The notes below the pieces were generated by a model. It was given only the letters and a program-made list of their open reading frames with translations. It did not search any database and was not told the DNA's origin. A program made the translations under genes and the position numbers. DNA of 64,000 bases from Bryum argenteum (Eukaryota; Streptophyta; Bryopsida; Bryales; Bryaceae): the NCBI GenBank assembly GCA_037043015.1, contig CM073321.1, positions 35,008,101 through 35,072,100 of the forward strand, read 5' to 3'. This document shows, in pieces, positions 1 to 39,213 of the stretch. Each line of letters opens with the position of its first letter. Position 1 is the first letter of the stretch.

Positions 1-1433
1 GAGAGCAGGTCGGATTCAGACTCTGAATCAGAGGCACATGATGATCTTGACCCATCTTCACCGCGCGCTTCTGCTCATGGCACAGCAGATCCGGACGACT
101 TCAATGCAATCGTTCCATTCGACGAAGCCGTTCCAGACATTGCCAGAGAACAGCCGGATCATACTGCCGCAGGTCTTCCTATCGACGAGGATGTCATTAT
201 TACAGAAATTTTCGGAAATGTGGTTAAAGGATTTCTGGACCGGATCCTCGACGAGGATCAGTTGGGTTCCGACAATCAGGCGGGGGAGGTCAGTTTGATG
301 GAAGAAGGTCATGATGGGCAGGCCGCTGGCCAAGATGGGCAGGCCGCTGACGGTTTGGTGGCCGGGGATGCTCCACGGGCGAACGAGGAGGAAGAGATGG
401 AGGTCGTTAATGATGACGATGTCACGATCTCTACAGTAGTTGAAAGACAACCTCCCGACCCCAAAGACATCATTGACTTGAGTGATGATGAATTCAACAT
501 CCACTCTTCCGATAGCGATGATGAGGAGGATGATCAAGTCCCGCCCGACATGAAAGCCATTGTTCATAAGGGGAAGACGATTAAGGTGGAGAAGGACTAC
601 TAGAAGAGGTCCGAGGAGAAGTATGCCAGGAAATTGGAGCGGCGGAAGGTTAAGGCGCAAAAAGAGAAGGAGCGGCTTGAGAAGCAGCAGAAGCTTGCTG
701 ATGCCGAGGAGGCCATCACAATTGCCAACGAGAAGGTCGCCCAGGTTGAGGCTGAGGCTGCGGCAAAGATCAGGGCTCTACAAGATGAGTCGAGGGAGAT
801 GTTCAAACATTTGGAGGCTCAAATGGCTGCCTTGGCTGCAGCGGCTTCCGCTTCTCAAAGCCAACCCTTTACGACTCCGCAAGCCGCAAGCGCATCTCTT
901 CTGTCGCCGTCCAAGAGCGCTCCACTGCCTCAGCCTCCAAGAGATGTTGTACCTGTCTATCGTCGACCCGACAATACGGCTGGCACACATTCTGAGGTTG
1001 CCACCCCTTCCGGTGTGAATCAGCTTGTCCTCGATGCTGTTGCTGAGGTTCAGCAACCTGAGGTTTATCGTCGACCCGACGATACGTCAGACATCAGTGG
1101 TGAGAGCGAGGCTGCTGCTACCGAAGCTAGCGAAGCAGTTGGTGTATCCGATGAGGTTCAAATCCCCATGGATCAAGTTCAGGTTGAACGGAATACCTTC
1201 CTGAAGCCCAACAATCTGAGGATTATCGTCGAGCCGACGATACAACTCACCTTCGTGCTGCGCCAATCAATGATGGCGATGTGGTCGAAGGTTTGAAGGA
1301 GCCGCAGTCACCATCCGTAGCGGATGTTGATCTTGTAGACTACGAGTTGGGAGCTGAGGACATCGCCTTCACCGGTCACGAAATCCACTGTCCTCCTGCC
1401 AAACATCCTCCCGCTGATAACGACCCCAACCAT
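1..1433 (+). pseudogene. Module copy 1, segment A: acidic/coiled-coil protein (partial, broken)
   Basis: The reading frame is open from base 1, so the gene starts left of the window. The N-terminal part is rich in Asp/Glu/Ser (acidic runs around 480-540). It is followed by a charged Lys/Glu/Arg/Gln coiled coil (about 604-820) and a Pro/Ser-rich part holding a repeated YRRPDDT-like peptide. An in-frame TAG lies at 601-603 and a one-base frameshift near 1188. After the shift the third peptide repeat (DYRRADDT) is again in frame with the sequence that follows. A GT donor candidate lies after 1433 in phase 0 and matches the phase-0 acceptor before segment B at 1937. B has no in-frame ATG upstream of its domain, so A and B are probably exons of one gene. 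No enzymatic domain was recognised. Confidence 0.55.
958..1242. repeat. Type-A palindromes, three copies inside segment A
   Basis: Three 19-bp inverted repeats lie at 958-976, 1066-1084 and 1224-1242. The half-sites are TATCGTCG and CGACGATA around a 3-bp centre; the first copy has one mismatch and the third has a GCC/ACC centre change. Each encodes YRR(P/A)DD/N in the protein. The dyad contains several CG sites. Copy 2 of the module has a different palindrome at the equivalent peptide (see 10494-10944). Confidence 0.75.
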
Positions 1434-1936
1434 GTACAGACATCTGACCATTATTATTTTGGGTGATTCCATCTTGCATGGAGTCTTCTATCCGGCACTC
1501 TAGGAAACTGATTCTAGTTCTGTTTTCTAATATGATATCATTTGTCTTGCTAGGATGTCAACACCGGTTCATGATGACTTGCGCTCGGACGGCCACCCCG
1601 TCTGTGGCGATTTCTTGTGTACCCTATTGTACAATAGTGTGAAAAGTAGTCATGAGTATATACAGACTTTGGGGATGTATCCATTTCAAACATATATATA
1701 AAGAGTGACGATTTGTTCAATGACTTGCGATGTGTCTAATTGTCATTGCTTGTCAATGTCTATGTTGCCCAGCTCCGGAACAATATTTGCGTGCATCATC
1801 CAATTACCTTGGAAGCTATCTCTAATGGGGGACCGCAGTTGATTAGGAGAGCTAATTGCTCCTATCCACTCTCGGCCTCCCCTATTTCATCATTTAATTA
1901 GGTAACCTCATTTCTTTGTTGTTGTGTATTGATCAG
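1434..1936 (+). other. Putative intron between segments A and B
   Basis: This stretch is AT-richer and lacks a convincing ORF. A GT donor follows 1433, and the polypyrimidine/AG acceptor (TTGATCAG) ends at 1936, both phase 0. A TATA-like string at 1693-1702 could instead be a promoter for B, but B has no suitable in-frame ATG, so the intron reading is preferred. Confidence 0.4.
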
Positions 1937-2788
1937 GTAGAATGCCTCGAGGGTAGGAGGGTGATCGTTTCGACACCGCCGCCTCCGTCGCGGAGGAAGT
2001 GGCTGAATATTGTCTTCGACTTGAACGGTATACTTTGTCATACAGCGTTTAGGACGACGGCTGTTGGACAAAGGTCGTACAAGTTGAAAGACAATGTTCT
2101 CTGCCACCGAATTCCAACTGTAGTCGGTCCCAAGGTTGTTTTCGCCCGTCCAAATCTTGGAGAATTCTTATGCCAGGTCTTCGCGATGGCAGATAATGTC
2201 TTAGTCTGGACCTCAATGCAAAAGCGGAATGCAGATGCCATCGTTGGCCATCTCTTCCGCGGTACGCAGGCTCCAGACGCCATCTTAAGCCAGGAACAAT
2301 GTTCGAAGATTGAGCTCTCTCCAGGGCGCTTCTTCCACGTTGGTCAGAAATTGATGTGTATGAAGGTCCTCTCGGAGACCTTGTTCACCAACCCCTATAG
2401 GGGCACATTATTTTCGTCTGACAATACCCTTCTCATTGATGACTCTCCAATAAAGAGCATCTGCAATGAGAATGGCAACGCTGTATTCCTTCGTACTTGG
2501 AATCTCCATGTTGGAGAGGACGACTTCCTTCTAGGAGAACTCTTACCATGGCTTCAAGGGTTAGACTCTAGGTGCCAAGCGGGTGAGCTACGGAGTTATG
2601 TTGAAGCCAATCGAATTGGTCCCTACCCGTCAAGTGTGGGTGACTTGGCTGTAGATGACCTCATTGCTAGGATGAGAGAATCCTCAAAGAATATGGGGAC
2701 GCGGTTCAATCTTCCTGGGTTGGGCATGGTCGTTGAGGGAGGAAGGGTTAGATCTAAGTCTCCGATGCGGGCATTGGATTTAGCTTAG
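1937..2788 (+). CDS. Module copy 1, segment B: FCP1/NIF-like HAD domain with DxN motif
   Basis: The exon encodes about 284 residues. The HAD domain starts with KWLNIVFDLNGILC (motif I). It continues through VLVWTSM (motif II, the Thr/Ser after a Trp) to TLLIDDSP (motif III), which is the layout of the FCP1/SCP/NIF (TIM50-like) branch of HAD phosphatases. Classic members have DxDx(T/V); here the second Asp is Asn. The nucleophile is kept but the general acid/base is lost, so CTD-type phosphatase activity is doubtful. The codon just before the GT donor (2786-2788) is TAG, probably a decayed CAG. The exon joins segment C in phase 0. Paralogues lie at 11721-12518 and 37818-38583. The domain call is firm; the function is inferred. 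Confidence 0.75.
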   Translation, partial: VECLEGRRVIVSTPPPPSRRKWLNIVFDLNGILCHTAFRTTAVGQRSYKLKDNVLCHRIPTVVGPKVVFARPNLGEFLCQVFAMADNVLVWTSMQKRNADAIVGHLFRGTQAPDAILSQEQCSKIELSPGRFFHVGQKLMCMKVLSETLFTNPYRGTLFSSDNTLLIDDSPIKSICNENGNAVFLRTWNLHVGEDDFLLGELLPWLQGLDSRCQAGELRSYVEANRIGPYPSSVGDLAVDDLIARMRESSKNMGTRFNLPGLGMVVEGGRVRSKSPMRALDLA

Positions 2789-2971
2789 GTAACAAACAAT
2801 TTACCATGGATACAATTTTGTGTAACATATGTATTTGTAGTTAATTCAACCGGTGCTCTGACTAAATATGAAATGTTACTGTTTTTTGTTGGATTTCTCT
2901 TGCTTTTGAGTCTGTCTAAATATGCTTAATGGTTTGTGTCGGAGTTTATTCTAAGCATTGTACAACAACAG

Positions 2972-3760
2972 GATGGATCTACTAGCATCCCCGAACCAAG
3001 GAGTCCTCGAATGTTGACTAGAGGTCTTCGCTCGAGATCAGATTCTGGAGGATGGAGTTGCGACTCACTTCCATATTCCAAACCATACTTGTTGCAATCT
3101 GCAGCCGACGCCATCTCTGCGGCTATAGACTATTCAAGGGCGGATATTGAGGATGGCATAGTGAATAGTCCTCCAAGTCGCGGACCAATCAGAACTCCCA
3201 TGTGTTTGCCGTCCCCGCTGAGGCACGTATCATCGAGTCGAGAGGATTGCTTTTCGCCGAATGCTTCAGCTGGCGAGGGGACCAACCGCAAACTTAACCT
3301 TACCTTCACGGAGACGCTCGAACCCCAACAGGTGAAAGAGATGCCCAAGGTTGCGGTTGTTGAGTCAACTATGCAAGCGGCCGTCAGCACTAGATCTCCG
3401 TATGCACGCAAGGAAAGTCTTCCTAGGACCCTTATAGTTGCCGAACCTGCTCACACTGAACCGCCTAAACCAACAAGTATTCCAGTTATGTATAGAAAGA
3501 AGCTCAATGACACAATGTCCCCGCTTCCTCCTCTAGGGACACGGTCACTTTCGGAGGGCAAGGTGGGAAGGGCTTTAGATAGCAACGGAAGGAAAAAATC
3601 AAAATACGAGACATTAGTATACGATAGTGCATGTTATAATGGGGCAACTGTCTGTTACTCCTCCTATCCTTCTCGCCGGGACGATATCATGAGAGGTATG
3701 GCCAAGCTGAAAGCAGACGAGGCTGCTAAGGCAAGGAAAGAAGGATTATCCAAGAAGTGA
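2972..3760 (+). CDS. Module copy 1, segment C: Pro/Ser/Arg-rich tail
   Basis: The acceptor ACAACAACAG ends at 2971, and the exon (phase 0) runs to a TGA at 3758-3760, about 262 residues. No catalytic domain is visible. Motifs shared with the copy-2 tail at 15025-15825 include a DIEDGIVNSPPSRGPIRTP-like block followed by a Cys-x-Pro-Ser element. A basic C-terminus of the pattern RRDD-(I/F)-R, then K-x-EAAKARK, is also shared. The conserved SPPSRGP block could be a docking or modification site for the neighbouring HAD domain; that is inference. Most likely this is the C-terminal exon of the A-B-C protein. Confidence 0.6.
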   Translation, partial: DGSTSIPEPRSPRMLTRGLRSRSDSGGWSCDSLPYSKPYLLQSAADAISAAIDYSRADIEDGIVNSPPSRGPIRTPMCLPSPLRHVSSSREDCFSPNASAGEGTNRKLNLTFTETLEPQQVKEMPKVAVVESTMQAAVSTRSPYARKESLPRTLIVAEPAHTEPPKPTSIPVMYRKKLNDTMSPLPPLGTRSLSEGKVGRALDSNGRKKSKYETLVYDSACYNGATVCYSSYPSRRDDIMRGMAKLKADEAAKARKEGLSKK

Positions 3761-4268
3761 GCTCTCCAAGAGAAGATTCTTGTCTATAATAAGTTTTAGC
3801 TTGGTATATAATTTTAGAAATAAGGATCATAAATAGACATTTCATATTCCATTGGCATGTATCCACCACATGGTGCCTATATATAGTATAGAATCATTCA
3901 TATGTATGTCATTTTCATCAATGTTGAGAATTCATAAATATATATATATATATATATATACAACAAGAATATTAAATAATCTTGTAATTTTTATTAAGAC
4001 TCCCCTTCATCATGGCTCATGGGTGCCATTCATTGCAAGTGTTAGATACTAACTGTTTATCTACATCTTTTATTGTATTGATGGTCTCCTCTTTATATAT
4101 TTCCTAAATTTACCTCACTTCATGTCCAATTAATTTTATAGTTATCGTTGGATTCAACAACTATTTTTATTCAACAACTATTTAATAATCTCAAAATGTG
4201 AATTTTGTCTCAATTTAACGAATATGGCCTTTTGATACTTATGTTGAGTGTTCTACGTGGTAATGCAG
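3761..4268. other. AT-rich spacer with short (TA)n
   Basis: The stretch is low in GC and contains a short (AT)n run at about 3937-3960. No coding signal was seen. The 3' end (GTAATGCAG, ending 4268) is a plausible splice acceptor for the exon at 4269. Confidence 0.5.
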
Positions 4269-4586
4269 GAACCGTTGATAGTTAATGATGTCCCTGAGGA
4301 CGAGGCTTCTGATGCCGACAGCGACTTATCGGCTATGAGAAAGGATGTCATGGCTATCGTAGAGTCTCGACGTTTAGTTATACCATTGTCGTCGGTTCCG
4401 GAAACTCCGCCTCTTGCCCTACCTGTCAGTCACACTTCACGTGATGACTTTGATCGGTTTGCACGAGCGATTAACATGCGAATTAAAAAGAATGAGGCCA
4501 AAGCTAGACGTATCGAAGAGAAAGCTTTAGCTAGACTTGCACCCAGACATTCTCCGCGACTTGCCGCGAAGAACAAATTTATATAG
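4269..4586 (+). CDS. Orphan tail-like exon (D)
   Basis: The exon is open from the acceptor at 4268 to TAG at 4584-4586, about 105 residues. Its C-terminal part (SRDDFDRFARAI, then KKNEAKARRIEEKALARL) resembles the basic ends of the C segments at 2972-3760 and 15025-15825. It is therefore probably another C-type terminal exon, either an alternative last exon of copy 1 or the relic of a further copy. It ends 141 bp before segment E of copy 2. No domain was recognised. Confidence 0.4.
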   Translation, partial: EPLIVNDVPEDEASDADSDLSAMRKDVMAIVESRRLVIPLSSVPETPPLALPVSHTSRDDFDRFARAINMRIKKNEAKARRIEEKALARLAPRHSPRLAAKNKFI

Positions 4587-4727
4587 TTCTATGCCTTCAT
4601 TACTTGATACTTATAACATTTTTCTATATTGTGAACGGCTTTATATTATGGATTAAAATTTTATTACTTATTTGTTTTATTCCTATTTGTTTATTCCGAT
4701 GTTGTATTTTGTTTTCTTATTCCTCAG

Positions 4728-7700
4728 ATGAGAATATCCGACTTAGGATCTCTTCAAGACGAAGAAGATGCCGTACTTCCTCAGAACTCTCCATCTGCTC
4801 CAGTTCCTCATGGAGATGATATTGTTCTTGAAGCACAAGACAACGTAGAAGACATGTCTTGTGCAATTCCGCGCGATAGTCCTATCCAATCCGAACCTCT
4901 TCCGGAAGCCATGGAAGAACCCGATAAACACGAGTCCCCTTCAGATGACGAACACTCTTCTCTGCTTGGAAGTGTCAATGTGGGCATCGTTCACATGCCG
5001 CCACATCTTCAAAACAAAGAGCCGGATTGGAGTGCCAACGAGATGCGAATGATTCACAAAAGTGATTCTATAGCAATCATAAACAGGTTCCGTTTCAAAC
5101 CTATTAAGAAGTCTCGTATGCTCATTCCATTGTGCCGTTTGGTGTGTTACCCAAAGGTTCGACCTATCTCCGAACAAGATGTCCGAAAACTCGAAAACGA
5201 GTTCAATAATGGTTACCAAGAAGGAGATCGGGTAACGTATGTATCTCCTTTCGATAGGAAAGGAAGAGAAAAAAAGGTTGATGCAGGAGATGGTGTGTGG
5301 GAGAATCCGCTTTAGAGAGATGCAAATGAAGAGTTCGAGAAGACTTTGATGTCGGATCCTGATCTTCATGATCTAAGTGGCAAATACTTCTATGTATATG
5401 AAGGTAACCACCGTTTAACAGCGTGGATGCGTCACATTGAGAGGTACCACCATCTGGATCCATCATGGTACATTTCAGTTGATTGCATCGTACTCGATGC
5501 TCGCGGATAAAGCAATCTCTTTCTTGACGCCATGAACGACATCAATTGGTAAGTACTTGAAACATTATTCTTATTCATTTCATTTGAATTCTCTGTAACC
5601 TGGACATATTCTCATCTTTGTTTCCGCTCAATAGGTCTACTGAACATGACTATGTCGAAGAAAGTATATGTGCGAAGCTACAACGGATGCGAAAGTTTGG
5701 TAAGTTGAAACTTGAAGATTTCAAGGATCTCATTACTCCGGAGGATTACCAAATTTGCCTAAAAGCTAAAGCAAGAAAGAAACATGGTATCCTGTCACAG
5801 TGGACGTCTTCGTCAAGTTCTTATATGCGGTAAGACTTCTTAATACGTACTAAACACTGCTATCTTGTACACGTTTCATTACAATTTCTTACTACTACCT
5901 CTGTGCCATGTAGAGGAGGTTAGCGAAAGCATCAGATAATGCCGAAGCTACTTATTACGCCTCTACCCCTAAAGAAAAGCAAACAGGGCCAGGAGTTTGG
6001 AGTGCCATGGATAACACCATCAAAGCGGAAATCAAATCTATCCGTGGCAAACAGTTCGACAAAATGGTTGCTGTGGCCAATAACCAACTTGGCAAAGTGT
6101 TCCCGAAAGAGGTAAATAATTTTGTCTACTTAGTTTGTAAGGAGACTCATTACTATTTTTGATGTATACTGAAATTAACTACTTCTATTTGTTCTATGTG
6201 CAGATCTATTCTCTTTACGGCCAAAACCTGAAGTCCGATGTGACAATCGAACGGTTGCACATAGTTGCCACCACTAATGTCCATTTCGATTTTAAGGGAA
6301 AGTGGCTCCAATGGTGGAATGCGCCAGATGATGTACGCCGATCTGTCCACTTCCCAGATGAAGGATAAAACATTGCTAGCATTTCTGCCTCGCGCTTCTC
6401 TTTGGGCTCAGGTATATAATACTTAACTTTTGTCATTATTGTACTCCCGTCATCGACTATGTACTTCATCCTAACGTAGTCTACTTTATTGCAGTTACAA
6501 CAATCTCTTGAAAGTGAAATAGAGGATGGCAAAATCCACATTCAGTGGTCGGATGCGGTACTAACGCCAACTGTGTACGTTCAGAAATGGAGATTGCTTT
6601 TATGGGAAAAGGCCTTCGGGAACTACCTCGCTCAAAATGCCATCCCGAAGTTCTTAAAAGGATCCGATATTCGTAAGATTAGTGGTGGCAAGGCTTCTAT
6701 TAAAAGGCTCTTATTCCGGTACGTATTCACTTAGTTTTTCATTTTCCTGGTCAATATGCAGAGTACTGAAATCAGTAGTGTATACTACATTCTTATAATA
6801 TGATTTCTTGACTCTAGGTACTTGAAACAAGAGCTTCTCAGCAAAGGAGCCTTCGCTTCGTGGTCCATTTCGGCTGAGCTCGAGGACGTAACGGTCTCAA
6901 ATGATCCATCCAGCATCTTCTCTGAAGCCCAACAGAGACGGTTCTCCATCTCACAGTTGCTGACCGGTGGTTGGTTCCTTGAGTGCAACGATAACTTTGT
7001 GCACAAGGAAGAGAGACATCTGCTTCGGAACCTCAGTTCAAACGCACCAGGCCATGCACCGATGGAGATCGATGATAATGACGACAAAGACGTCTCCATT
7101 TTACCAAGCCCGCCTGTCTCACTCTCGGAACCTTCTTCTCCGGTTGCACAGCCCAGAACCCGAGCAAACAGAAAGCGACGCAACGATGCTGCGGAGCCTG
7201 TAGTTGATCTTGAAGAAGAACCTGATGAAATCGCTCCGCTCCATGAAGACATTGCAGCTCCAGAAGAAGCTAATTTGACTCAGGCTTCAGATGGAGCGAC
7301 CAACAATGCACGTAGACGCGGTCGACAATTGACTCAGATTTCTGCAGGCGCTCTTACAAATGCGGGGTCCCCTCCTCAATCAGTCCCAGTCGATCACAAC
7401 TCCGGAAAGAAGTTCGCTTCACTCCCATTTCTTGAACCGAAGCATGTTGGAGAGTGCTTGTCTTCTGAGATTACTATTTCTCTCCCAATGTATTTGGAAA
7501 AAGGGGACATCGGAGCTGCTGTTCAAAAGGCAGCTCACGAAACAAAAGACTGGGACACGCAACTCATGGACATCATCAGCCACATCAGAAAGGTATTATG
7601 TCTTGAATCTTTTATTACATTATTTTCCTTCTGAAATTTAGATTAGAACACATCGCTTACAACGTGTCTAACTTTCTGTGATTTTCAAAGATTGGCAAGG

Positions 7701-8995
7701 ACAGGAAGTATCCATGTAAGGAGATGGGCACGAAACACCCGCATCCCGGCATTGATCTCATCTACGTAGACATTCCCGAAAATTTACCTGTGCCTAACGT
7801 TTTGCCTGTCAAAATCCCTTCATGGAACAAGCGAGAAAAAAACTACTTCGAGAATGTGTTCTTTTTTGTTTTCTACAACTTGACAGACGAGGGTGCGATA
7901 CTTGTTATGCATCCCAAGGACAGTCGCGTTGAGAAAGCTCTAGATGTCGAGTCAAAGGCTTTTGAATTCCGAATGGTGCAAGATTGGTGGGGATATGATC
8001 CCATGCCAATGGCCTCGACGAACCCCCATGTGAAAACGGTATGGTCTTCATTCTACATTCAAATCATCAGTCATGATTATTACAACGTTTTTTAAATCTC
8101 TCTCATGTATTGAACTTTGCCGACTCACAACTTCCACATTGAGGTCTTTGTTCGGAAGTCTTTTGCCACGAGATTCTCCATAAGACAGGTTGCGAAAGAG
8201 TACGCAGGTGTGCCCATTCTCCCCGACAAGGAGGACCATGTTTTCAATTTTGCGAGCAATGACTCCATTCGTAAGAAGGAAGATGGTACTCCGTGGCGTA
8301 GCTTGCGAGAGAAGGACCCCTCCTTCATCCAATGTTTTATTGATTCTCTCACAGACGAGCGGGGAATCGTCTTTGACTGGAGCCTTAGTACAAGTTAGTT
8401 GTTGCTAATACCAACTCTCATTCAACTTATTCAATATTGTAGTTTTGATGTTGGTTGTTGGTATGTAGGTGCTTTTGTGATTGCCTGCGCGCGATCGAAC
8501 CGTCATCTCATTGCTGTTGAAGCTGATGAAGAGATATTTGACGGACTTTTATCGGCATACGTGGATGGTACCGCTTTTGAGGAAGAAAGCAGCGATTCGG
8601 TTCCAGTTTATGACTACGACAGTGACACTTCTGAACCGCTTCAGAAGAAGCAACGCCCAACATTTTGTGCGTACTTATCTCTTACTTTCCCCTCTTCAAT
8701 TGTCACCTTCACTTGCTAATATTTTATTGGTATTGACTTTTTCTGTACTTTTAGGATCGCAGGTTCCAATCGACGCTTAATTGGCGACGGAAGTCTCTAT
8801 AGCAGTCCTTCACAAACCTTCACCCTGCCATCTTATGCGGAGCGCATAGCTCAGGAATTTGTCGCTGCCCCTTCTCCCGTCTTATCGGACAGTACTAGAC
8901 GTCAACGCTTTAGCTCCACAGTGCTTGCGTTTATAGACGATGAGGCTGATCAGTGTGACCAACACTTTAATGGTCGTTCACCATCAGCTTCGTAG
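4728..8995 (+). pseudogene. Module copy 2, segment E: ParB-like / DNA-methyltransferase-like fusion, 10 exons, decayed
   Basis: Exons can be placed at 4728-5548, 5635-5829, 5916-6111, 6204-6411, 6495-6718, 6818-7592, 7691-8038, 8123-8393, 8469-8670 and 8755-8995. The nine introns are 75-99 bp. Exon 1 has a ParB/sulfiredoxin-like segment, with IPLCRLVCYPKVR followed by YVYEGNHRLTAW near 5391-5440. Exons 7-9 look like an N4/N6 (PF01555-type) methyltransferase: a motif-IV-like DLIYVDIPEN (DPPY expected), a LTDEGAILV strand, then IVFDWSLSTSAF and NRHLIAVEAD (DxFxGxGT region expected). Both catalytic motifs are altered, so methylation activity is doubtful. Damage: TAG at 5313, TAA at 5508, a one-base shift near 6363, and CG in place of AG at the exon-8 acceptor (8121-8122). 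Between the ParB and MTase parts lies an acidic linker with KRKRR-type basic stretches. A related gene is at 20982-23400. Confidence 0.65.
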
Positions 8996-24770: not shown

Positions 24771-24796
24771 GGTTGAACTCCATGATCTAGTCTTTC

Positions 24797-24819
24797 ATTT
24801 AACTCGACTCGAGTTGAAC
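24797..24819. repeat. Type-C palindrome after segment A of copy 3
   Basis: A 23-bp dyad with arms TTTAACTCGA/TCGAGTTGAA-like, the last of the type-C set. It lies in the presumed intron following segment A. Confidence 0.8.
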
Positions 24820-25027: not shown

Positions 25028-25326
<299 letters not shown>

Positions 25327-28512: not shown

Positions 28513-28523
28513 TTTTTTGGTGT

Positions 28524-31061
28524 CTATTTTGTGTGCGGATATGTGGTGTATGGGGAAGTCAATGGGGTTATTGATGATTTGTTTGGGCGGGGGATTGTTG
28601 CTGTAGGTGGTGGGAAGGTTAAATGTGTTGGAGGTGGAGGAGTAGGTGGAGATATTTCGTGGTCATGTGTTATGTATTCGTTGTATAGAAGATGGGATGG
28701 TGAGTTCGAGTTGCACGGTTGTGAACATTTGGGGGTGCATATTTTTTGGCAAAATAGTTGTTGAGCAAGATTGAGAGCGCTGCGTTCTAATTTAGTGGGA
28801 TTTTTATAGTATATTTTGAAATCTATAGGTGACATGAGGATGGTTCCATTTGGGAGTGTGAGGTGGCTTATTTTGGTTATTTTGAGAAGTAGTAGTTTAT
28901 GTAATAATTTGAGGGAGACTTTGGGATTTAGGTGGGGTAGGAAAATTGATGCCTGGGTCAGCCATCGCGTTTCTAATTCGGTGGCTTGGAGTTGGAAGTT
29001 GTCAAGTGTGCATTTGAGGTGTAGTCCACCAGCTTCTTTAAGTAGGAAGATTGTTCTTGTGATTGGGGAATGTATGCAATCGTTGTATTTTATTCGGGGG
29101 ATTTCTTGGGATCCACCATATTTTGCTAAAATGTGTTGAATGAGACCTTGGTAGATTGGGCCAAGTTTACCTTTGTCATTTAGTGCATTTGTAAGTTGGT
29201 CTCCAATGCATTTGAGGTAAGCATTTTTAAGGGAGAAAGCTTCAAGGCCAAAGTCTTCATGTGGTAATTGTGCAATAACATTTGCCGTACATTTAGGTAG
29301 CCCACATATTGTTTTTTGGATGCTGGTGATTTTCTTATCTAGTTTTTTGATCATTGGTAGTGAGTAGGGTACTGCATAGAAGCTATATGCAACGCCTGCG
29401 CGTATGACTGTATCCACCATATTGATTTTTTGTTTCATTGTGGCAGGGCAGTTAGAGAGTTTTTGACATTGTTCAGTAAGTTTTTTGGTGGTTATGTGTG
29501 TTTGGAGTTTCCACTTGAGAGTTGGTACCATTTGAATACCGAGGTAGGGGTAGGCTTCATTTTGGTGTAGTGTTGGTAATGGTTCATTTTTGTAATTGAC
29601 GTTTTGTGTTTGAAGAAGGGTTTTGAAGGTGGTGGGTGTGAGTTTGGATTTGTTTGGGCAGCCGGTAACTACACATTTTTGTGTACCTACTTCGAGTCCA
29701 GTCCAGTCACTGAATTTTTCAATTTTATTGATTTGTGTTTGTAGCGCTTATAGGGTACCAGTGAGAGCAACTAGGTCATCAGCATATGCAGCAGAGTTAA
29801 TTATTGATTTTGATGTACCAAATTTGTAACCATGGTTTCCTAGTTGTAGCCATCTCAAAAGGGGTTCTAGGAATATGATAAAGAGATATGGGCTTAGTGT
29901 GTCGCCTTGGATGGTGCCCCGTTGGATTGGTATTGGTTTCGTTTTTCCAAAGTGCTCTCCAGTGTATATGGTGGTGGAATGTGAGTAAATGTTTCCAATT
30001 AGTGCAACAGCATCTATTGGGTAGCCCAGGTCAGCCATTATTGCCAGTAGTCTAGCATGGTCTAAGGATCCAAATGCATTTTTGAAGTCGATGTACATTA
30101 TGTAAATGTCTTGGTTTGTGATTTTGGCATCTTCAAGTGTGGCCGTAAGAAGTTGGATTTGTCTAGAGGTACTTCTTTCAGCTCGAAAGCCTTCTTGGCT
30201 GTCATGAAGGATTTGGTGGCGTTCGCCGTATGCTGATAGAATGAATGTAAGGGTACTAGTAAAGAGTTTGTATATCGTATTAGCCAGGGCAATGGGTCTA
30301 TGGTTGGGGAGAAGTGAGGGGTCACCTTTCTTGTAGAGAAGTATAGTAAGGCTGGTTTTCCAAGATGCAGGCATTTGTTTTTGTTTATAGCAGTGGGAGA
30401 AGAAGAGGTGTAGAAGGGTGTGGAATGAGTCACGCATATTTTTGAGAATGGAGTTAGGGATTTTATCTGGGCCGGGAGCTTTGTTTTGTGAGAGATTTTT
30501 TAAGCAGATGTCAAAAGTTTCCCGATTGTAGTATGTGTGTAGTGGAGTTTCTGGGGTACCTCTCTTTTCAAGGATAAATCCATCTAAATCATGCCATGGA
30601 TATTGGCGGACTGCACATGTGCAGTTTTGGGGATGTTCTGGTTGATAATAGCATGTTGCGATGGTTGGGCGGTTGGTGATGGACTGCTGGAAGAAGATTT
30701 CTTGGGCTATGTCGTTTGGGCTAGTCAAGATTTCATTGTTGTGAGTGGTGATGCAGTCTAGTGGTGGAGTTTCTAGGTTTTTGAAGACATGGTTGTTTAT
30801 TTTCTTGGGGCTAGTGTTATAAAGTTGTCTATATTTTGTTATGGCCTTCTTGATGGATTGGCGGGTGTATTTCGTGGTAATGGCCCTTGCTTTTTTGTTT
30901 GCGGTTTTGGCTAAATCTGCTAGTGTGTTTAACCAATCTTTTTTAGTGTCATCTGTGTCCGGGGGGGGTGGTATGCTTGCATGTGTGTGTTGTTGTGTTT
31001 CTTGTATTATTGGGTGTGTTCTCCAAGTGTCGTTGTTGTTGGCTATGTAGATTTTTTGCAA
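28524..31061 (-). pseudogene. LINE ORF2, reverse transcriptase part
   Basis: The frame runs 31061 to 28524 and is interrupted once by TAA (29748-29750, probably from CAA). RT landmarks are NKAPGPDKIPNSILK (about 30480-30440), HRPIALANTIYKLFT, GFRAERSTSRQIQ, IDFKNAFGSLDHARL, IQGDTLSPYLF and YADD at 29775-29786. This is a full set of LINE fingers/palm motifs. The thumb and connecting region follow to 28524, where the frame changes. It acts in target-primed reverse transcription in intact relatives. Confidence 0.85.
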
Positions 31062-33374
31062 ATTAAGTGGTATGTAAAGAGGTGTCTCTTCCAGTCTTTT
31101 TGTGATTTTCTTGGTAGAAATCCACCTTGATGGTTAGTTTTTGGTGTGAGAGTGGGGATACGGGGGGCGGTACAAGTTTTTAGCATTGTTTCTGTGGTGC
31201 AGTTTATGAGGAGGTCTAATTGTGTACATGCAGTGGTCCATTCAGTGCGAGTGAGTTGTTCTTGTTTTAAAATAGTCGTAAGGTCGTTAATAGAGAGTGC
31301 GTTTTGTTCAGAGAATGCAGTATTAAATGAGTCTAAGTTGGCTTGGGGGATGGGGTTTAGAATACGAGGGGTTGTTTCGGTTGATATTGGTGGAGGGTGG
31401 GCTATTAGTGTTTGTTGAGGTATGTGAAGATTTATTGGTGAGTGGTCTGAGTTAAGGTTTTTTGTGTGGTTGGGAGTGGAGGTGAAAAGATGGTGATTGG
31501 TGGAATTTATGTAGTAACCGTCAATAAGGCTCGATTCTGTATAGTTGTATCCGCCTTGTCTGGAGAATGGGCTGTTTGTAGGAATGTAGTTTAGATTGAG
31601 ACTATCGGTGAAGGTGCGGCATTGAATGTCTTCGTCTTGTGGTGGTGTTGTGGTATGTTTGTTTTGTCTGCCTATGAGTGCGATGTCCCTGTTAAAATCA
31701 CCACAGAGAATATGGGTGTAATTTGGATGTGTTTGTACTCGGGTGGTAATTGTTTGCTGAATGGAGGGGATTAGTCCTATATCTTCGGGATGGGACGGCA
31801 TGTAGAGATGGATAAGAATCCATGGTATGAGTGGTTCGTTCGCAATATGTATGATTTGTAAATATGGTGAGATGTTTGCTGGTGTTGGGATCTTGGTGAC
31901 ATTGCCTGGGGAAGCATATTTGTAGTGGATTAGGGTGAGAAGGCCGCCTCTAGTGGGTGTGTATCTTAATCTTTGTTGTATACATCTAGGGAGGGCGTGT
32001 GTATTGTTGAAGATGAGTTTATATTGTGGAAGCATGCGTTGTATGTGTTTTGTGGATTTATTTGCAGTGAGTTTTGTTTCTTGTATGGTAATGATAGCGG
32101 AAAGGTTATCCGCGAGCTGGTGGATGTTGAGAAGTGCAGTATTGAGTGAAGCTGCATTCCAGGTAGTCATAAGTGTGCTTTGGTATGTAGTAATTTGGGG
32201 TTGGGGTTGAAGAGGGGGAGTGGGCGGAAGTGGTGGTGGGTGTGAGTACTCGGGTATGTGTGTTTTACATTTTAAGGCTTCGATTAGTAGTTCTTTTGGT
32301 ATGTATGGGAATTCAACCATTAATGTTTGTAGGTTTGCATTGTTGTTTATGTTTGTGATATAATTATATAATTCATTGTGTATCGTGCGAGAGGGTATAA
32401 TATTGTGTTGGTGTGTTTCTAAAAATTTAGTGTAGGGGTGAGGATTATTTAAGTGACGGGAGGGGATGTTTGGTAAACGGGAAAGTTTTTTAAGTAATGA
32501 TGTAGTCCATTCAGGAGTTGGGTTTGATAATATATGTTGTTCACACATTGTTAGTAGAGGACCAATGGTGGTAATTAGTGCGTATAGAAAATTTGGCGGT
32601 GGGTATTGGGGGTGGTTAAATATGTAACGTGTTAGACATGGGTATTTGTTTGTACTTGTTGGGTGGTCGGGGTGTGTGGTTTGGATTGTGGAGGAAAATA
32701 TTTTTGCAAGGGGTTTGTATTCTAGATATAATATGATTGTGCTAGGAATGAAGTATGTGTTGCTGTGTCGTCTATGTTTGGCGGGATGGGTGTGTAGGAT
32801 ATTTGGCATGGGGCTTGGGTTTGGTTCGACGTCATCGCATAGTAGGAGGAACAAATAGTTTGGGATGAATTTGCCTTTGGGAATTTTGGATTTTGGTCTG
32901 GCAAGATGTGATATGGTGTTTGTTTTAGGATTGGGCATTTTAGGATTTTTAGGTTTTGATTGTGTTTGGGTATAGGTTGTATGTGTTTGAGAGGGGGACC
33001 AATTTGTTTTGTGTATCTTACGATTTTCCATTTGTTTGGTGTATTTATCTTGTTTTGTTGGATTGGTTTTTGTTGTATTATTTATGAGATGGGGTGTGTT
33101 TTGGTGTATTAATTTTTTGGCGAGGCCGGGAAGCCGAGCTCCATTTGGTTTGTGGGGGAGATAGGTTTGATTTTGGTGTAATGTGTAGATTTGTGTTCTT
33201 GTTGTTTTGTTTAATGTGTTATCCCCAAGTAGCCCAAGTATAAACTTGAGATTCCTTAGTAGCCATAGTATGAGCTTGGGGCTCCCAAGAAGTTCAAGTA
33301 CAAACATATTTGTATTTATGATTGGGTATGTATTTTTATGTGTATGTGTATGTATATGTGTATGCATATGCGTA

Positions 33375-33420
<46 letters not shown>

Positions 33421-33715
33421 AATGTGTATTTGAATTTTTATTTTTATTTTTATTTGTATTTGTATTTGTATTTGTAATCGTATGCATATGCGTATACATA
33501 TGTGTATTTGTAGGATAATATTTAGTATATAAATATACTAGAAAGTATACGTATTCAAAAACCATACATATGGAGGTATACCGTGCATAATCTACTATAA
33601 ATACTACAAAATACTTATATGTGTGTACTATACTGTATACCCTATATCTACCAAGGGTAATGTAGAATCTACTTTTACCATATAAGTTTATAAGTACTTC
33701 CCTTTCATCTTCCAT
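31043..33715 (-). CDS. LINE ORF2, N-terminal part with 2A-like motif and APE endonuclease
   Basis: ATG at 33715-33713 overlaps the TGA of ORF1 by one base (TGATG). The first 170 residues include a (TH)n stretch encoded by a GTATGT microsatellite (about 33340-33430). At 32810-32833 the protein reads LLLCDDVEPNPSP, close to the 2A ribosome-skipping consensus D(V/I)ExNPGP but with Ser in place of the Gly. The APE endonuclease follows: TTWNAASLNT, IQETKL (catalytic Glu), GGLLTLIH, ILCGDFNRDI (Asp/Asn), SLIDGYY and LNSDHSPI (Asp/His). The frame ends near 31043, where the RT frame overlaps, implying a one-base shift. Confidence 0.8.
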
Positions 33716-35355
33716 CAATCCACATTTTTTGAGCTTTCAATCAAAAGTGGAGATTTGGTCTTCATGATTTGTTGAATGGTTGAGAGAGTCATTTGAAGGG
33801 TCTCTTGAATAGAATTAATTTGTTGTCTCATCTCATCATTCTTCTCTTTCATCATTTCCTTAGTCTCCTTTCGCATCTTCTTGTTGCTCTCCTCCACCAC
33901 TTCTTCCATGAGACTAACAATTTCCTTCTTAGTAAGAGGTTTGCTCTCAAGCATCTTGAATGTCTCAATGGTGTTTACCATTGCAACATTCACATCTTCG
34001 AAGCTAAAACTCTTGACTTGCTCGAAGGTTGGAGGCTCCACACCTTCCAAGCTCCTCCTATGTGGAGCAAACTCCACAAAAAACCCTCCAATTTGGAGGG
34101 TTTTTTTCACAAATTGTCTATAGACAATTGGATTGGAACAATGCACATTGGCACTACCATTGTGCCTTGTTCCATCCTCTTTGTGAAACCAAATAGACAA
34201 CACATTTTTGGAGCCCATTACTTTCAAGATTGCTTCCTTTGTCTCCTCTACTTTCATGAGGATTGGAAGGTGAGAGAGTGTCAAAGACAAGGCATCCTTC
34301 TTAGCTTTCGACTCCTCCGTCATCTTCTCTCCTCTAATGGCCTTCTTTGCTTCCACAATCTCACTCCCTAGGGTGATTTGAAATTCTTGGATCTTCAAAG
34401 CTTGTGTTGGTGTTGTTGCTACCAAAAAGGCAAAGCTCTCCTCTTTACCTTTTTGGACTCCCATGATCTCCAAGGTATGGCCCCTCTTGAAGCTACTCCA
34501 AAGCACCTCCTTGAAAACTTGTGCTTCCATCAATCCCTTCAAAGAGTCACTCTTAATTTTGACACTTAAGTTAGTAATGGTGGATATGTTGTGAAAACTT
34601 TTGCAAACTTTTCCAATCGTATGCACCTCATCATTAACAAGAATGAAGGGTCTAAGACCTTTCAACAAAGCAATTGCATCCACTTCCGGTTTTAACAAGT
34701 GTAATTTAATGATGCCGGCCCAAACACCTTTCCTACCACCTTGCTTGACACTTAAGCAAACTATGTTGATGGGGTCTATAAGGTTCTCTCCTAATGATAT
34801 GTCCATGGCTTTAAGCCTCAACAACACCAATTCTTTGACTTGATCATGCAACAATTGAATTCTGGGTTGTTCAAAATGAATTGCAACATGGAAATCAAAA
34901 GCCAAATCCGTTTCCTTGTTGATGTTGATATCTTGGAGGAGTTGGGTAACATTGTAATGTTGCCCTTCACCTCCACTCCATGTGCTAGGATACAACGCTT
35001 GAGGGATTCTTGGATAAGCCATTCTTGCTCCTCTAGTCTCTTTTGCCTCTTTTTCCAAGAAGCCTCTAGTAATCATATCTTTGATGGGCTCCTCCCATGC
35101 AAGTTCCTCCAATCCCTCCTCCTTGGCAAGAGTCTCCAAGACATGAAATCCCATCCAAAATCTAAATCCCTTCACCTCCGGGTTAGTGGAATGCAATTTA
35201 TAGCTTAGATCATTGGTTGTTCTTTTTTTCTTAGCCTTGTTGGTTTTCTCATTTGTGAGTCTTTTTAAACTTTCAACGGGTGTCTCAATATCCATTTCAT
35301 CCACAAAGACAAGGTTCTTTTTGACACTAGAGTGATCCATGATAGAGAAAGACAT
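33715..35355 (-). CDS. LINE ORF1 protein
   Basis: An uninterrupted frame of 546 residues from the ATG at 35355 (MSFSIMDHSS) to the TGA at 33717-33715. The frame stays open upstream to about 35739, but this sequence is A/T-rich and repetitive and looks untranslated. The protein has a Lys-rich N-terminus, a central part without a CCHC knuckle, and a strongly predicted C-terminal coiled coil (EEVVEESNKKMRKETKEMM and onward). ORF1 proteins of LINEs bind RNA and form multimers; by position and coiled coil this is the equivalent. The family was not recognised further. Confidence 0.75.
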   Translation of the reverse strand: MSFSIMDHSSVKKNLVFVDEMDIETPVESLKRLTNEKTNKAKKKRTTNDLSYKLHSTNPEVKGFRFWMGFHVLETLAKEEGLEELAWEEPIKDMITRGFLEKEAKETRGARMAYPRIPQALYPSTWSGGEGQHYNVTQLLQDININKETDLAFDFHVAIHFEQPRIQLLHDQVKELVLLRLKAMDISLGENLIDPINIVCLSVKQGGRKGVWAGIIKLHLLKPEVDAIALLKGLRPFILVNDEVHTIGKVCKSFHNISTITNLSVKIKSDSLKGLMEAQVFKEVLWSSFKRGHTLEIMGVQKGKEESFAFLVATTPTQALKIQEFQITLGSEIVEAKKAIRGEKMTEESKAKKDALSLTLSHLPILMKVEETKEAILKVMGSKNVLSIWFHKEDGTRHNGSANVHCSNPIVYRQFVKKTLQIGGFFVEFAPHRRSLEGVEPPTFEQVKSFSFEDVNVAMVNTIETFKMLESKPLTKKEIVSLMEEVVEESNKKMRKETKEMMKEKNDEMRQQINSIQETLQMTLSTIQQIMKTKSPLLIESSKNVD

Positions 35356-35739
35356 GATAACAATGCAAATCTGTGCAAACAATACAAAATAATGCAAACA
35401 ATAAAGACAATGCAAAACAATGCAAAGCAAATAAAGAATCACAAACAAATAAAATTTTACAAAATAGGGACAAAACCTTTTTTGGGTTAAGAGACGTACC
35501 TGTTCAAGTACTTGTATCAAGTATGGTGCAGAGAAATGTAATAGAAGTGGGTAGGGTTTACGATACGTACCTGTCTTTGACCTACCTTTAACGGTTGCCT
35601 TGCGTTCCGCTGCGTTTGGCGAGGGATGCTCTCCTTTCGAGGCTGCGCGGTCTTTTTTCCCTACTCCGTTGGTGAGGTTAATGTCAAGTCGTTGGTAGAG
35701 CTGCTTGAGGATGTTGGAGATGTTGCTGCGTTCGGGCAA

Positions 35740-37600
35740 GGTTGAGGATATGCAGCTGTTTAGGCGAGTGCCCTAATGCAGGCGACACTACACACGGTTT
35801 GTTTTGGCGATGTTTAGGGCCACACGAGATTGTTGGCTTTGCCGGTGACTCTTTAGATTGCTAACACAGCCTTGTTATTGGATTCCGCACAGGTACTTGA
35901 GTCGTTGGACAGGGGTAATCTCTGCTCTTGTTGGATCGCAACACCGTTGTCCGCTCTTGCCGTTGTTTGTTGTTGTCGAGAACGTCGGAACTGTCGTTGC
36001 TGTCTGGACGGTTGCAACTACGAAGTTGTCGGTAGTGCTCCTCGTTGTGCTTTTGTCGGCAATGTTGTCGTTTTGCCTCTCCACCGCTCTGCAGCCGACT
36101 TCGGTGTTGTAGCCTTGGAGCAACGATACTGCTAACTCCTGCTGTGGGGACTGTTGGTGCTGCAGCCACGATGCTGCTCACTCCTGTTGTAGGGACCGGT
36201 GGTGTTGCAGCCTTGCAGCTGTCGAAGCGCCGTCGCTGCTTCTTGAAATTTCAGATGAAAACCGCTAGCATGTAGAGCCTGTCACGATGCAAGTCCACAA
36301 GCGAAGCTGATTGTCGATCCAGGGGTGGATATTCTTTCGGAGGAGGCGACTACGCTGTTGAAGCTTGTTGCGGTCAAACTTCTTGCGTGCTCCTTCTTGT
36401 TGCCAGATGTGCTGATTGCCGTCACGTAGAGTTGAGGTGATTTCCTGATCCTCTCTTCTAATTCATTTTGTCGATATTTTGCTGCTACCGCCGAGCTTGC
36501 TTTTCCCAATGCTTTGTGCATACAATTTGCACTGTTGCTTGTATATGTTGTGATGATTCTTCCAATATTGACGTTGAGCACAAGTTGAGGTTGTCGTTGG
36601 CAAGGTCAATGCTTCAGAATTTGGTGCTAGTGTTTCCGTTGGTGAAGTGTCCTTACGACGTAGCTTGCGCGAGTTGTTTGCTGAAATGGTTCCACCAAGC
36701 GTAGAAAACGCTTGTTCTGCTACAGAGTTTGGTGTTGTTGCTGCCGTTGGTGAAGTGTCCTTATGACGAAGCTTGCGCGAGAATTGTTTGCTGAAATGGT
36801 TCCACCAAGCGTGGAAAACGCTTGATCTCCTTAAGAATTTGGCGCTGCTGTTACCGTTGGTGAAGTGTCCTTACGGCGTAGCTTGCGCGAGGGTTGTTTG
36901 CTAAAATGTACTCCTGCAGAGCTTTTTCCTGCATGCACTTGTTGTTTCCTGCGTACACTTGCCAAGTAGGAAAAGATAACTGAGAAGCAACTGAAAAGGA
37001 GTGTAACTAACAGATTGCAGGAGGCGAGTTTGTTGAAGTTTGTGTGTAGGAGAGCGATTTCCCTTGTTAGAGTTGCTGCTTGCGTGTTGCGCTTCTTTTG
37101 GTATCAGCTGCTAAAGAAATGAGTGCACAGTTGCTGCCGCCGCTTGGCGTAGGTTTGTGAAGGAGATTACTAGAAGTTGCTACGGAGATCTAAGTTTGAG
37201 ATGTGTAGTGAAGGTAGATAGGTGTGGTGTTGTGTGGAAGGGGAGTTGGGAGAGAGTTGAGAGTGTGCTAAGGGTTCCTCACGTAAATAGCCAGCTTCTA
37301 ACGGCTGTGTTAGAGTTGCCCGAAAATTGTAGATCTGAGATCCAACAAAGGTCCCGCTTTCAGATTACCCTCGCGGATCTACTATTTCACGTTCAAACTG
37401 TACAACACTACTTTAGAAGCTCGCTTTTCAGCCCAGCAACACCTAATCCTAGCACACACCACCATAGCCACAAGTTGACAAGCAAAGGGGCTGTTCGTTA
37501 GAGCCAGCTCCTTTTGACGACAATGCATGTCTCCTGCGGCTAACTCCCAAGCTCCCCTCACCACCTAATGCGGAGCTCAGTTCTGAACAGTCATCTCTCC
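35740..37600 (-). repeat. Tandem-repeat-bearing 5' region of the LINE or 5' flank of segment B, copy 3
   Basis: Three direct units of 108-110 bp start at 36636, 36744 and 36854, each opening CCGTTGGTGAAGTGTCC and containing AGCTTGCGCGAG and ACCAAGCGT. Two units of about 50 bp (TGCTGCAGCC type) lie at 36125-36225. Read on the minus strand these precede ORF1, as promoter monomers do in some LINEs. ORFs here are short and on both strands. A splice donor, GCCG/GTAAGC, at 37644 (+ strand) suggests that sequence right of about 37600 already belongs to module copy 3. Confidence 0.45.
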
Positions 37601-37817
37601 CCTACGAGATTTACAAATAGCTGAAACTCAATCAGAGACGCCGGTAAGCTCTTCCCGTACCAAAATCTCATTTTCATTCAATCCTTTCTTTATGAGTTCG
37701 GTGTGATCGCATTGTTTGGATTTGAGATTTCTTAGTGTTATAGCAATGGTCAGTCTCGAAATGTGGCAGTGTAGTATTTAACTGTCCACATTTTTCTGCC
37801 CTCCTTTTGAACAGGGG

Positions 37818-38583
37818 ATGAGTCATTCGCACAGTCCGGTAGTTGCAGCCGTGGAGGATGTCCCTTCTTCTATTCCTTCAAAGGTGCCATACAAGTGGCT
37901 CAATGTCATCCTAGACTTGAACGGTATTCTCTGTGTTTGCAAGGCGAAGAGATTTATGCCAAAGGACCAAGTTAACGACATGGTCGAGAGTGCACATTCC
38001 TCTGTCCTATTCGCTCCGATTGGTCCCAAGGCCGTTTTCGTTCGGCCCTCCTGCCTTGATTTCCTTCGTGAGTTGAGTGAAGTTGCATACGTCTCCGTAT
38101 GGAGTTTGATGGTTCATGCGACTACGAGGTCCATATATGACTACTTGTTCCAGGGCGTGCCATCCCCGTGCCTTAATTGGAAGCAGAACTTATGTGAGGT
38201 TGTCAAGGTTTGTGGACCGCGGAATAAGTTGTCCAACTTCAAGATGAAGGGGACTAATAAGAATCTCTTCCTCAAACCACTGTCTAGATATGCTTTTCAA
38301 TGCTCTACACTCAAAGTTTAATGAGCATGACACGATCATCATCAACGATAGCCGTGAGAAGCACGTCGTAAATGAACGAGAGAATGTCGTACTGCCAATC
38401 TTGTGGTCAGAGCAGAATGTATCTAACAGATTCTTGCTGGGCAAGCTCCTCCCTTGGATTCAACGGCTACATCAAAGCCGCGGTCAGGGCTTGATGTCTT
38501 TCAGTAAGGAAGACAACATTGGGCGTAGGATGCTCTCTCAAGAGCTGATACTTCAGAATACGAAGAGCTTAGTAGCGTTGTAG
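37818..38583 (+). pseudogene. Module copy 3, segment B: FCP1/NIF-like HAD domain with DxN motif (one frameshift)
   Basis: The acceptor TTTTGAACAG ends at 37814 and ATG is at 37818. The domain opens YKWLNVILDLNGILC (motif I, DxN), then VSVWSLM (motif II). The frame changes between about 38290 and 38320, and continues with TIIINDSREKH, a degraded motif III where the usual DD is ND, and LLPWIQRLHQSRGQGLMSF, which matches LLPWLQGLDSRCQ of copy 1. It ends with TAG at 38581-38583. It lies on the far side of the LINE from E and A of copy 3, in the same orientation. Confidence 0.7.
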
Positions 38584-38949
38584 AGGCTTCTAGGAAGCTA
38601 GTGCTTGATTTGGCTAGTTAACCATAATTGGTCTCACTAGACATGATTCAAATTTGCCATGTATATTGTGTAAATTATAATAAATTGAGGATGCACTTCC
38701 GGTACAAATATGTAATAAGTGAAGCAGTTCATCTATAAATTTATCTGTGGTTGTTAACTTCTCTTTTCATGGACTTAGGCGACTGTTGTAGCAGTCGTGC
38801 CCATACCCGTCATCTTTGAGTCCCCAGCTCTTTGAGTATCACCTCATAAGGCATCCACGCCGAAAATATCTCGTGGTGCGACAAGACATTCTCTCTCTAC
38901 GCCTTGTCCATTAAAAGTTCTGGAGCCGACAACAGAACTTAGAGACTCC

Positions 38950-39213
38950 ATGACAGAATTAATGGGGCCACCTAAACCTTTTGTTGCCCATGCTGTTGAT
39001 ACTTTGCGTTTGCCTTTCCGTACAAAGCGCTCGCCATTACACGAGGGTCACCGAGAGACTCAATCACACGATGGATTTCAGCCCAGAGTTACTTGTCCTC
39101 CAATTCGTGATGCATGGGAGCAACGGATTTTGAAGCTTCAAAGACGGGAAAAATCAAGTTCTCGTTCGTCACCATACACAGGCTACAGTCATGGACCAGA
39201 AGTGTGGCACTAG
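38950..39213 (+). CDS. Module copy 3, segment C: short tail remnant
   Basis: An open frame of 87 residues ending in TAG. It contains PPIRDAWEQRILKLQRREKS, which matches the SRRDDIMRGMAKLKADEA end of the copy-1 tail and RHNDLIRALMKQHEAKAK of copy 2. The SPPSRGP block was not found; it is shorter than the other tails, probably truncated or lacking an upstream exon. Its position after segment B fits the A-B-C order. Confidence 0.45.
   Translation: MTELMGPPKPFVAHAVDTLRLPFRTKRSPLHEGHRETQSHDGFQPRVTCPPIRDAWEQRILKLQRREKSSSRSSPYTGYSHGPEVWH

Follow-up and report, generated by a model that had tools for sequence, protein, structure and literature searches.

A large family of probable terminal-inverted-repeat DNA transposons with group-specific palindromes in the moss Bryum argenteum

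As described in the portion of PMC5735166 consulted for this study, the VANC protein is encoded by a transposon, binds short family-specific motifs that recur in introns and upstream regions, and causes methylation loss there; the VANDAL motifs evolve by tandem repetition and differ between families. The consulted part of PMC12730594 describes TET/JBP-bearing fungal transposons from several DNA transposon lineages, in which the gene is thought to counter methylation-based silencing, and Lanisha, a proposed cut-and-paste superfamily with CA..TG termini in most cases for the clade treated there. This study concerns a 64,000-nucleotide stretch of the Bryum argenteum genome (contig CM073321.1, here contig C1; C1:35008101-35072100), hereafter the window, which was compared with the genome (258.8 Mb, 25 contigs). 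The initial annotation of the window had described three colinear copies of one gene module comprising E (ParB-like or methyltransferase (MTase)-like), A (acidic coiled coil), B (NIF/FCP1-like HAD with a DxN motif), and C (Ser/Pro-rich). The segments named there were found at or near their given positions on the plus strand. Our comparisons indicate that E-A-B-C almost certainly forms the cargo half of approximately 20-kb DNA transposons with terminal inverted repeats (TIRs), a large family that appears to comprise at least four groups (I-IV), each with its own TIR and palindrome.

The comparison of loci revealed that the similarity between the group II element of the window and its relatives ended at 16549-16550 in three copies and at 16574 in a fourth. 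The TIR TTGTCTCAAAATAACGAATATCCCCTT was present at this end, and its partner was located 20 kb leftward in the locus II_C2. Group III elements ended in CCTGCATATTTCCCAATATAACGAATATGGGGTT, whose left partner was identified in III_C7 and at position 54562 of the window; the TIRs started with AAGG or AACC. When up to three mismatches were allowed, 169 group II and 320 group III TIR matches were found genome-wide, and the same patterns read backwards yielded none. Flanking sequences were analyzed for 19 end pairs: 9 belonged to group II, and the other 10 were drawn from roughly 20 group III pairs matched by eye among the hits listed. An exact 4-bp target duplication was identified in 16 of the 19 pairs, compared with 6 of 342 mispaired ends; of the three remaining pairs, one differed at a single position, one was II_C6, and one belonged to group III. 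The duplications included CTAG, CTGG, and CACC. Two elements were read whole, namely II_C2 (20,158 bp, target duplication ATCT) and III_C7 (20,607 bp, target duplication CACC), and both exhibited the same layout from left to right: a TIR, a DUF7869 gene on the minus strand, a palindrome array, a 6-7-kb spacer in which no clear gene was seen, a second array, the E, A, B, and C genes on the plus strand, and the other TIR. The shared ends and target duplications bear out the earlier suggestion of a mobile unit. E-A-B-C is a real module; it constitutes only half of the element, because the DUF7869 gene and the arrays lie to its left. A recent tandem duplication, which the initial annotation had already disfavored, was rejected because the groups are diverged and each has its own TIR.

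We then considered gene order. Among the matches listed (150 for E, 57 of them of group III, and 150 for B), 22 of the 57 group III E genes had a B gene 2.57-3.16 kb downstream on the same strand, and none had a B gene otherwise placed within 6 kb. Shuffling the B positions produced a mean of 0.16 and at most 2 such pairs. The remaining 35 E genes may belong to elements whose B falls outside the 150 listed. Similarly, 52 of the 59 exact group III right TIRs listed had a B gene 1.2-2.9 kb inside on the element strand; none had B on the opposite strand, and none had it outside the element within 4.5 kb. A test that mixed groups, using E of groups III and IV and B of groups I-III among the matches listed, was weak: 8 same-strand pairs were found versus 4 others within 12 kb, and 5 versus 3 within 6 kb, with a mean of 1.8 and a maximum of 7 after shuffling. 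The order is kept despite strong divergence, as first proposed, and in group III the preference for B downstream of E is far beyond chance. The copy numbers are lower bounds, obtained by scoring the best candidates: at least 141 genome matches for the B gene of copy 1, 153 for that of copy 2, 151 for the C gene of copy 1, and 150 for one E exon of copy 3.

The ratios of nonsynonymous to synonymous substitution (dN/dS), calculated by the Nei-Gojobori method with our own script, indicate that E, A, B, and C are under coding constraint. The values for III_C7 versus III_C8 were 0.10 for E-N, 0.10 for E-C, 0.16 for A, and 0.14 for B; those for II_C2 versus II_C7 were 0.32, 0.35, 0.40, and 0.16, respectively, with 0.27 for C. 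II_C2 versus II_C6 yielded 0.29-0.45 for the parts found only, and the closest pair, II_C2 and II_C4, yielded 0.10-0.29 for E and B. In the III_C7/III_C8 and II_C2/II_C7 pairs, the synonymous divergence (dS) was 0.09-0.10 for B compared with 0.67-1.17 for E, a difference of about 7 to 12 times. This mosaic suggests exchange or conversion between elements.

The assignment of B to the NIF/FCP1-type HAD proteins stood. The PF03031 scores of B in copies 1, 2, and 3 were 48.5, 38.2, and 24.6 bits (cut-off 21.8; E 9.9e-13, 1.5e-9, and 2.3e-5), and all 11 distinct copies read had D-[LI]-N as motif I. An IDDSP-like motif was present in 10 of the 11 copies, as IDNSP in II_C6 and IDDSL in III_C1, and was not found in the frame of copy 3. 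Motif I of NIF/FCP1 HAD proteins is DxD. Because B carries D-[LI]-N in its place, with the second catalytic Asp replaced, its catalytic activity appears doubtful.

The E and A segments could be joined in frame across a GT-AG intron in II_C2 (e.g., 18493-18626) and in III_C7 (20315-20491). Each locus offered five in-frame intron choices, every one of which spans at least one palindrome. On the basis of these joins, E and A are probably one gene with A as its 3' part, rather than the separate segments first described. The E genes of groups II, III, and IV and their homologues share the motif [IM][ILV][DN]GQH[SC], and the E of copy 2, which represents a distinct type (E2 type), has GNHR. No Pfam family exceeded the cut-off for E of groups II and III or for the homologues, including the spliced group II and III models. 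PF02195 (ParB) produced a single sub-threshold match genome-wide (E 1.49) and none over the cut-off, and none of the 8 E N-terminal members matched ParB families. In searches of single proteins, PF01555 (N6_N4_Mtase) matched none of the 17 E members, nor the spliced E of groups II and III. The sub-threshold matches came from the E2 type of copy 2: the only match of its spliced C-terminus was PF01555, which aligned over the C-terminal end of its profile with 15.3 bits (E 0.02; cut-off 26.7), and the only listed match of its exon was the PHROG 'ParB-like partition protein' at GNHR (E 0.047). Hhalign comparisons gave an E value of 0.21 and a probability of 0.3% for the E2 type versus E of groups II, III, and IV, in an alignment that sets GNHR on GQH, and an E value of 0.25 for the E2-type C-terminus versus A of copy 3. 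A tblastn search with E returned one match without annotation from phages (E 3) and none from plasmids, and PADLOC returned one weak match for a single E homologue (E 0.0094). The classification of E as ParB or MTase was rejected, since neither E had such a match at curated cut-offs (genome-wide for PF02195, single proteins only for PF01555). The protein names are refuted by this result; the unit is not.

The left gene was recognized through its homologues. DUF7869 matched the window ORF (open reading frame) below the cut-off (E 0.00089) and matched the homologue P0012 at 129.7 bits. Named homologues occur in the mosses Ceratodon purpureus (P0012, a V-chromosome gene) and Physcomitrium patens. 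Among 40 long homologues, the 33 with a GHT[HF] motif had D350, D419, D505, D545, and D547 invariant; C355-x2-C358 and H415-x4-H420 were also conserved among the homologues. We infer that the product is a putative DDE-type transposase. For 3 of the 24 E-C homologues outside this genome, the contigs were equal in size (81,492, 224,779, and 302,068) to contigs on which a DUF7869 homologue was listed, suggesting that E-C and DUF7869 also occur as a pair elsewhere.

Each group has its own palindrome, with a core of 19-27 bp: TATCGTCGANCCGACGATA in group I, TTATCCCCGGSCCGGGGATAA in group II, TTTAGCTCGANTCGAGCTAAA in group III, and TTCAACTCGANTCGAGTTGAA in group IV. The exact core was confined to its own group in 12 sequences, leaving aside the window, in which several groups are present. 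Palindromes of any kind numbered 19-52 per group II or III unit (n = 8), compared with 3-10 when four sequences were block-shuffled three times each. The TIRs enclosed every core of II_C2 (26 of 26) and of III_C7 (18 of 18); the sequence read extended into about 11-12 kb of flank. The sites were arrays, 5' regions, introns, intergenic stretches, and, in II_C2 and III_C7, the gap between E and A. Genome-wide, 2,885 exact copies of the group III 23-mer were counted, against none of its reversed control. In the III_C8 array, 20 cores were 98% identical pairwise, a figure inflated because only sites with up to 4 mismatches were chosen, and seven 19-bp spacers were 67% identical; the center base was free. 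The arms were identical in III_C7, III_C1, and III_C10, although the synonymous sites of E were saturated. In group II, the open frame of A also contains the palindrome, which reads there as YPRPGDN repeats. The symmetry of the palindromes fits a dimeric binding protein. As a separate observation, the palindrome reads as protein repeats in the A ORFs of groups I and II (YRRPDD and YPRPGDN), and the palindromic DNA site may also be coding sequence in A of these groups.

We favor, with somewhat better than even confidence, a TIR transposon whose protein would bind the palindromes of its own group and counter host silencing by analogy with VANC; for an anti-silencing or self-marking role as such, we put the chances at even or slightly above. 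In this model, the DUF7869 protein would act as the DDE-type transposase, and an element-encoded protein, most likely E-A, would occupy the symmetric palindromes along the element in dimeric form. The reader, together with B and C, would keep the chromatin of its own family transcribable and counter host silencing in a sequence-specific manner. The naming of E-A as the reader is a guess by elimination. Given its DxN motif, B may act on the C-terminal domain marks of RNA polymerase II or as a binding scaffold.

Several results weigh against this model. II_C6 had no target duplication, no E-N match, and a single exact core, and one group IV locus had one near-match to the group III core, the two cores being alike. 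Three 65-bp spacers of the III_C8 array were 83% identical. A palindrome was common to II_C2 and II_C7, and another to III_C7 and III_C8, despite strongly differing E genes; consequently, E and the motif differ together only between groups. The dN/dS values of A (0.65) and C (0.87) in the II_C2/II_C4 pair were higher, on few differences, and several copies contained stops. B may be an unrelated passenger, and the palindromes may be bound by the product of the left gene. No profile provided a fold for E of groups II-IV, and no VANC homologue was recognized by profile comparison, in which E had no Pfam match over the cut-off. VANDAL transposases are of the Mutator-like element (MULE) type; the left gene of groups II and III is of the DUF7869 kind and does not correspond to them.

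A more far-reaching form of the same idea is a self/non-self code, in which each lineage would have a private palindrome and a private E-A reader, the HAD-partnered reader would act in trans on its own lineage only, and palindrome turnover would produce mutually blind families. We propose this code tentatively and think it rather less probable than its negation. If true, it would represent a second, independently evolved, palindromic form of VANC-type anti-silencing, or ParB/parS-like spreading in eukaryotic chromatin.

The palindromes could instead be transposase binding sites for synapsis or control of the left gene, with E-A-B-C as passengers or host-interference genes. Many TIR-element transposases bind close to the element ends, and in II_C2 and III_C7 the left gene has one array at its 5' end. 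However, no exact core was found within 2.4 kb of a TIR in these two elements, where cores were also seen in the gap separating E from A and in that separating A from B; we regard this explanation as unlikely. A ParB/parS-like system, in which E, as a protein with a ParB fold, would load on the palindromes, spread, and mark or protect the element, agrees with the clustering of palindromic sites, with the GQH and GNHR motifs, and with the PHROG match at the GNHR of the E2 exon. The ParB profile searches described above nevertheless argue against it, as does the fact that an integrated element needs no partition, and it seems improbable. Slightly less probable still is a structural by-product, namely hairpin repeats that expand by slippage and have no binder. 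The number and length of arrays do vary between copies, and the E/A gap has four cores in III_C8 versus two in III_C7; against this, the arms are better kept than the 19-bp spacers, the motif is found again outside the arrays and in elements whose synonymous sites are saturated, and the group II palindrome lies inside the open frame of A. The original reading of three colinear copies of one module, which is correct for copy 3 and for intact elements at other loci, is hardly tenable because the E of copy 2 is part of another transposon, an element end lies between the E and A of copy 2 at about 9833, and copy 1 has no E next to its A.

The window was accordingly reinterpreted copy by copy (Table 1). 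Copy 3 is one genuine E-A-B-C unit and the only such unit among the copies of the window: the independent group IV copy L073 was colinear with 19453-25207, 37604-39594, and 41952-41984 and contained neither of the two inserts. The proposed splitting of copy 3 by a LINE (long interspersed nuclear element) was confirmed by the first of these inserts, which carries RVT_1. Copy 2 was rejected as a single unit. Its E belongs to a separate, high-copy E2-type transposon nested in A, with which window positions 4233-9830 share 85-88% identity, the similarity ending at 9805-9830. This transposon has its own inverted repeats in the locus E2_C2, and the other half of the window's E2-type element was seen in E2_C2 and in L032, a locus left of the window. 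The group II element behind the E of copy 2 is cut inside A, and intact relatives such as II_C2 have their own E. The E exon of copy 2 had at least 150 matches, many at 85-91% identity, on contigs C1-C11; this spread, unlike that of B, first suggested that E and B do not belong together. In copy 1, no E lies beside A, and another E2-type element directly abuts A from the left in L032. Nested insertion would explain the junctions at the group I, group II, and E2-type elements. The fourth element of the window, of group III and starting at 54562, was overlooked in the initial annotation, as were the palindromes private to each group.

The E2 type, which we take to be MULE-like from its sequence features, produced only a SWIM match below the cut-off in Pfam (E 0.44). 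Two E2-type units contained 10 and 15 palindromes (3-6 in shuffles of the latter), L032 has four palindromes of approximately 50 bp at 400-bp spacing, and E2_C2 has tandem 116-bp units. The plan of this type consists of a gene with GNHR and a weak N6_N4 methylase signal beside a large MULE-like-looking gene and tandem arrays; two transposon types of similar plan are thus present within one genome. Both E2-type elements seen (2 of 2) abut an A segment, as if preferring that gene.

Table 1. Features of the window (positions are those of the window unless a contig is named).
Feature	Position	Strand	Basis
A1, 3' part of E-A gene, group I element	1..1433	+	ORFs
Group I palindromes TATCGTCGANCCGACGATA inside A1	958 (1 mismatch), 1066, 1224
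B1, NIF/FCP1-like HAD, DLNG and IDDSP	1961..2785	+	PF03031 E 9.9e-13; motifs
C1, Ser/Pro-rich ORF	2990..3757	+	ORF
Group I element right TIR	4205..4231	+	5/28 mismatches vs group II TIR
Separate E2-type transposon, right part ('copy 2 E' gene with in-frame stops)	4233..9833	+	85-88% DNA identity to E2_C2/E2_C4
GCTCACC-rich right end of E2-type transposon	~9779-9833	+
Group II element, right half	9840..12800	+	71-87% identity to II_C2/C4/C6/C7
A2, truncated (group II)	9840-11160	+
Group II palindromes in A2	10491 and 10749
B2 (group II)	11754-12515	+	PF03031 E 1.5e-9
Insert of another repeat, partly inverse of sequence near 41.7 kb	12801..14779	.	Colinearity gap vs four group II units; inverted arms I1
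Group II element, continued	14780..16549	+	Colinear with group II units
C2 (group II)	14995-15822	+
Group II right TIR	16523-16549 (C1:35024623-35024649)	+	0 mismatches
Group IV element (copy 3), first part	19453..25207	+	Colinear with L073
Group IV palindromes ATTCAACTCGANTCGAGTTGAAT	20421-24819		0-5 mismatches
E3 (group IV)	~20990-23360	+
A3 (group IV)	~23790-24400	+
LINE-bearing insert inside group IV element	25208..37603	-	Missing from L073; RVT_1 E 2e-21 in ORF 29748-31133
Group IV element, continued, B3 (from 37818) and C3	37604..39594	+	PF03031 E 2.3e-5; colinear with L073
Second insert in group IV element	39595..41951	.	Missing from L073
Group IV right TIR	41955..41981	+	7/28 mismatches vs group II TIR; matched by L073 7769-7801
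Fourth element (group III), left part, runs off window	54562..64000	.	TIR, palindromes, homology to III_C7
Group III left TIR	54562-54586 (C1:35062662+)
DUF7869 gene of group III element	~55009-57727	-
Group III palindrome array, then spacer	57816-58254

Other features of the window were observed as well. The LINE stretch at 26000-35800 has a strongly skewed base composition, with a GC skew of up to 0.5. Gypsy-like retrotransposon remains occupy 48522-53930, where an integrase zinc-binding domain scored over the cut-off and gag below it. A direct repeat of approximately 240 bp, 32 kb apart (17673-17914 and 49865-50089), is 85-89% alike in pieces, which are possibly solo LTR (long terminal repeat)-like.

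Contig C1 measures 44 Mb, or 17% of the genome, and has 114 of the 150 group III B matches listed and 41 of the 59 exact group III right TIRs listed. Many of the copies on this contig are broken. Because the DUF7869 homologue is V-linked, a natural guess is that contig C1 is a sex chromosome (moss U or V).

Lanisha, proposed by Maumus, McDaniel and Carey (Repbase Reports 2020), comprises what are reportedly large DNA transposons abundant on Ceratodon sex chromosomes, and the DUF7869 homologue P0012 lies on the Ceratodon V chromosome. The C(2)C and H(3-4)H motifs that lie between the second D and the last E in Lanisha may or may not correspond to C355-x2-C358 and H415-x4-H420 of the DUF7869 homologues. 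In contrast to the CA..TG termini in the consulted part of PMC12730594, the moss elements begin with AAGG or AACC. They may be Lanisha or relatives; this would lower the novelty of the transposon but not, as far as these sources show, that of the palindrome system. Sola2, in the consulted part of PMC3627910, resembles the moss elements in its TIRs, its 4-bp target duplications, and the possible presence of extra genes, and differs in that its duplications are AT-rich, whereas CTAG, CTGG, and CACC also occur here. Unlike the TET/JBP-bearing fungal transposons, the moss element has no TET/JBP match and carries E-A, a NIF-like HAD, a Ser/Pro-rich protein, and palindromes instead. B resembles the NIF/FCP1/SCP HAD proteins in exceeding the PF03031 cut-off and departs from them in having D-[LI]-N for DxD. 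In the literature searched, as titles and abstract beginnings, no such element was described, and DUF7869 was likewise in no paper found.

If the favored model is true, DNA codes for anti-silencing that are private to a family evolved on more than one occasion in plant transposons, and this genome would provide four or more natural motif groups, diverged to graded extents, for studying how such a code changes. It would also provide a use for a DxN HAD and for the E family, which matched no Pfam family over the cut-off in our searches, and would account for part of the 44-Mb contig that bears most of the copies listed. The likeness to VANDAL and VANC, as far as the consulted portion of PMC5735166 describes them, lies in a multi-gene DNA transposon with family-specific motif arrays in non-coding regions. 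The moss elements differ in that their motif is long and palindromic, its center being free, the left gene is of the DUF7869 kind, the TIRs are flanked by 4-bp target duplications, and the reader is only proposed. VANC is the closest working analogy, the anatomy being alike except for homology and the palindromic form.

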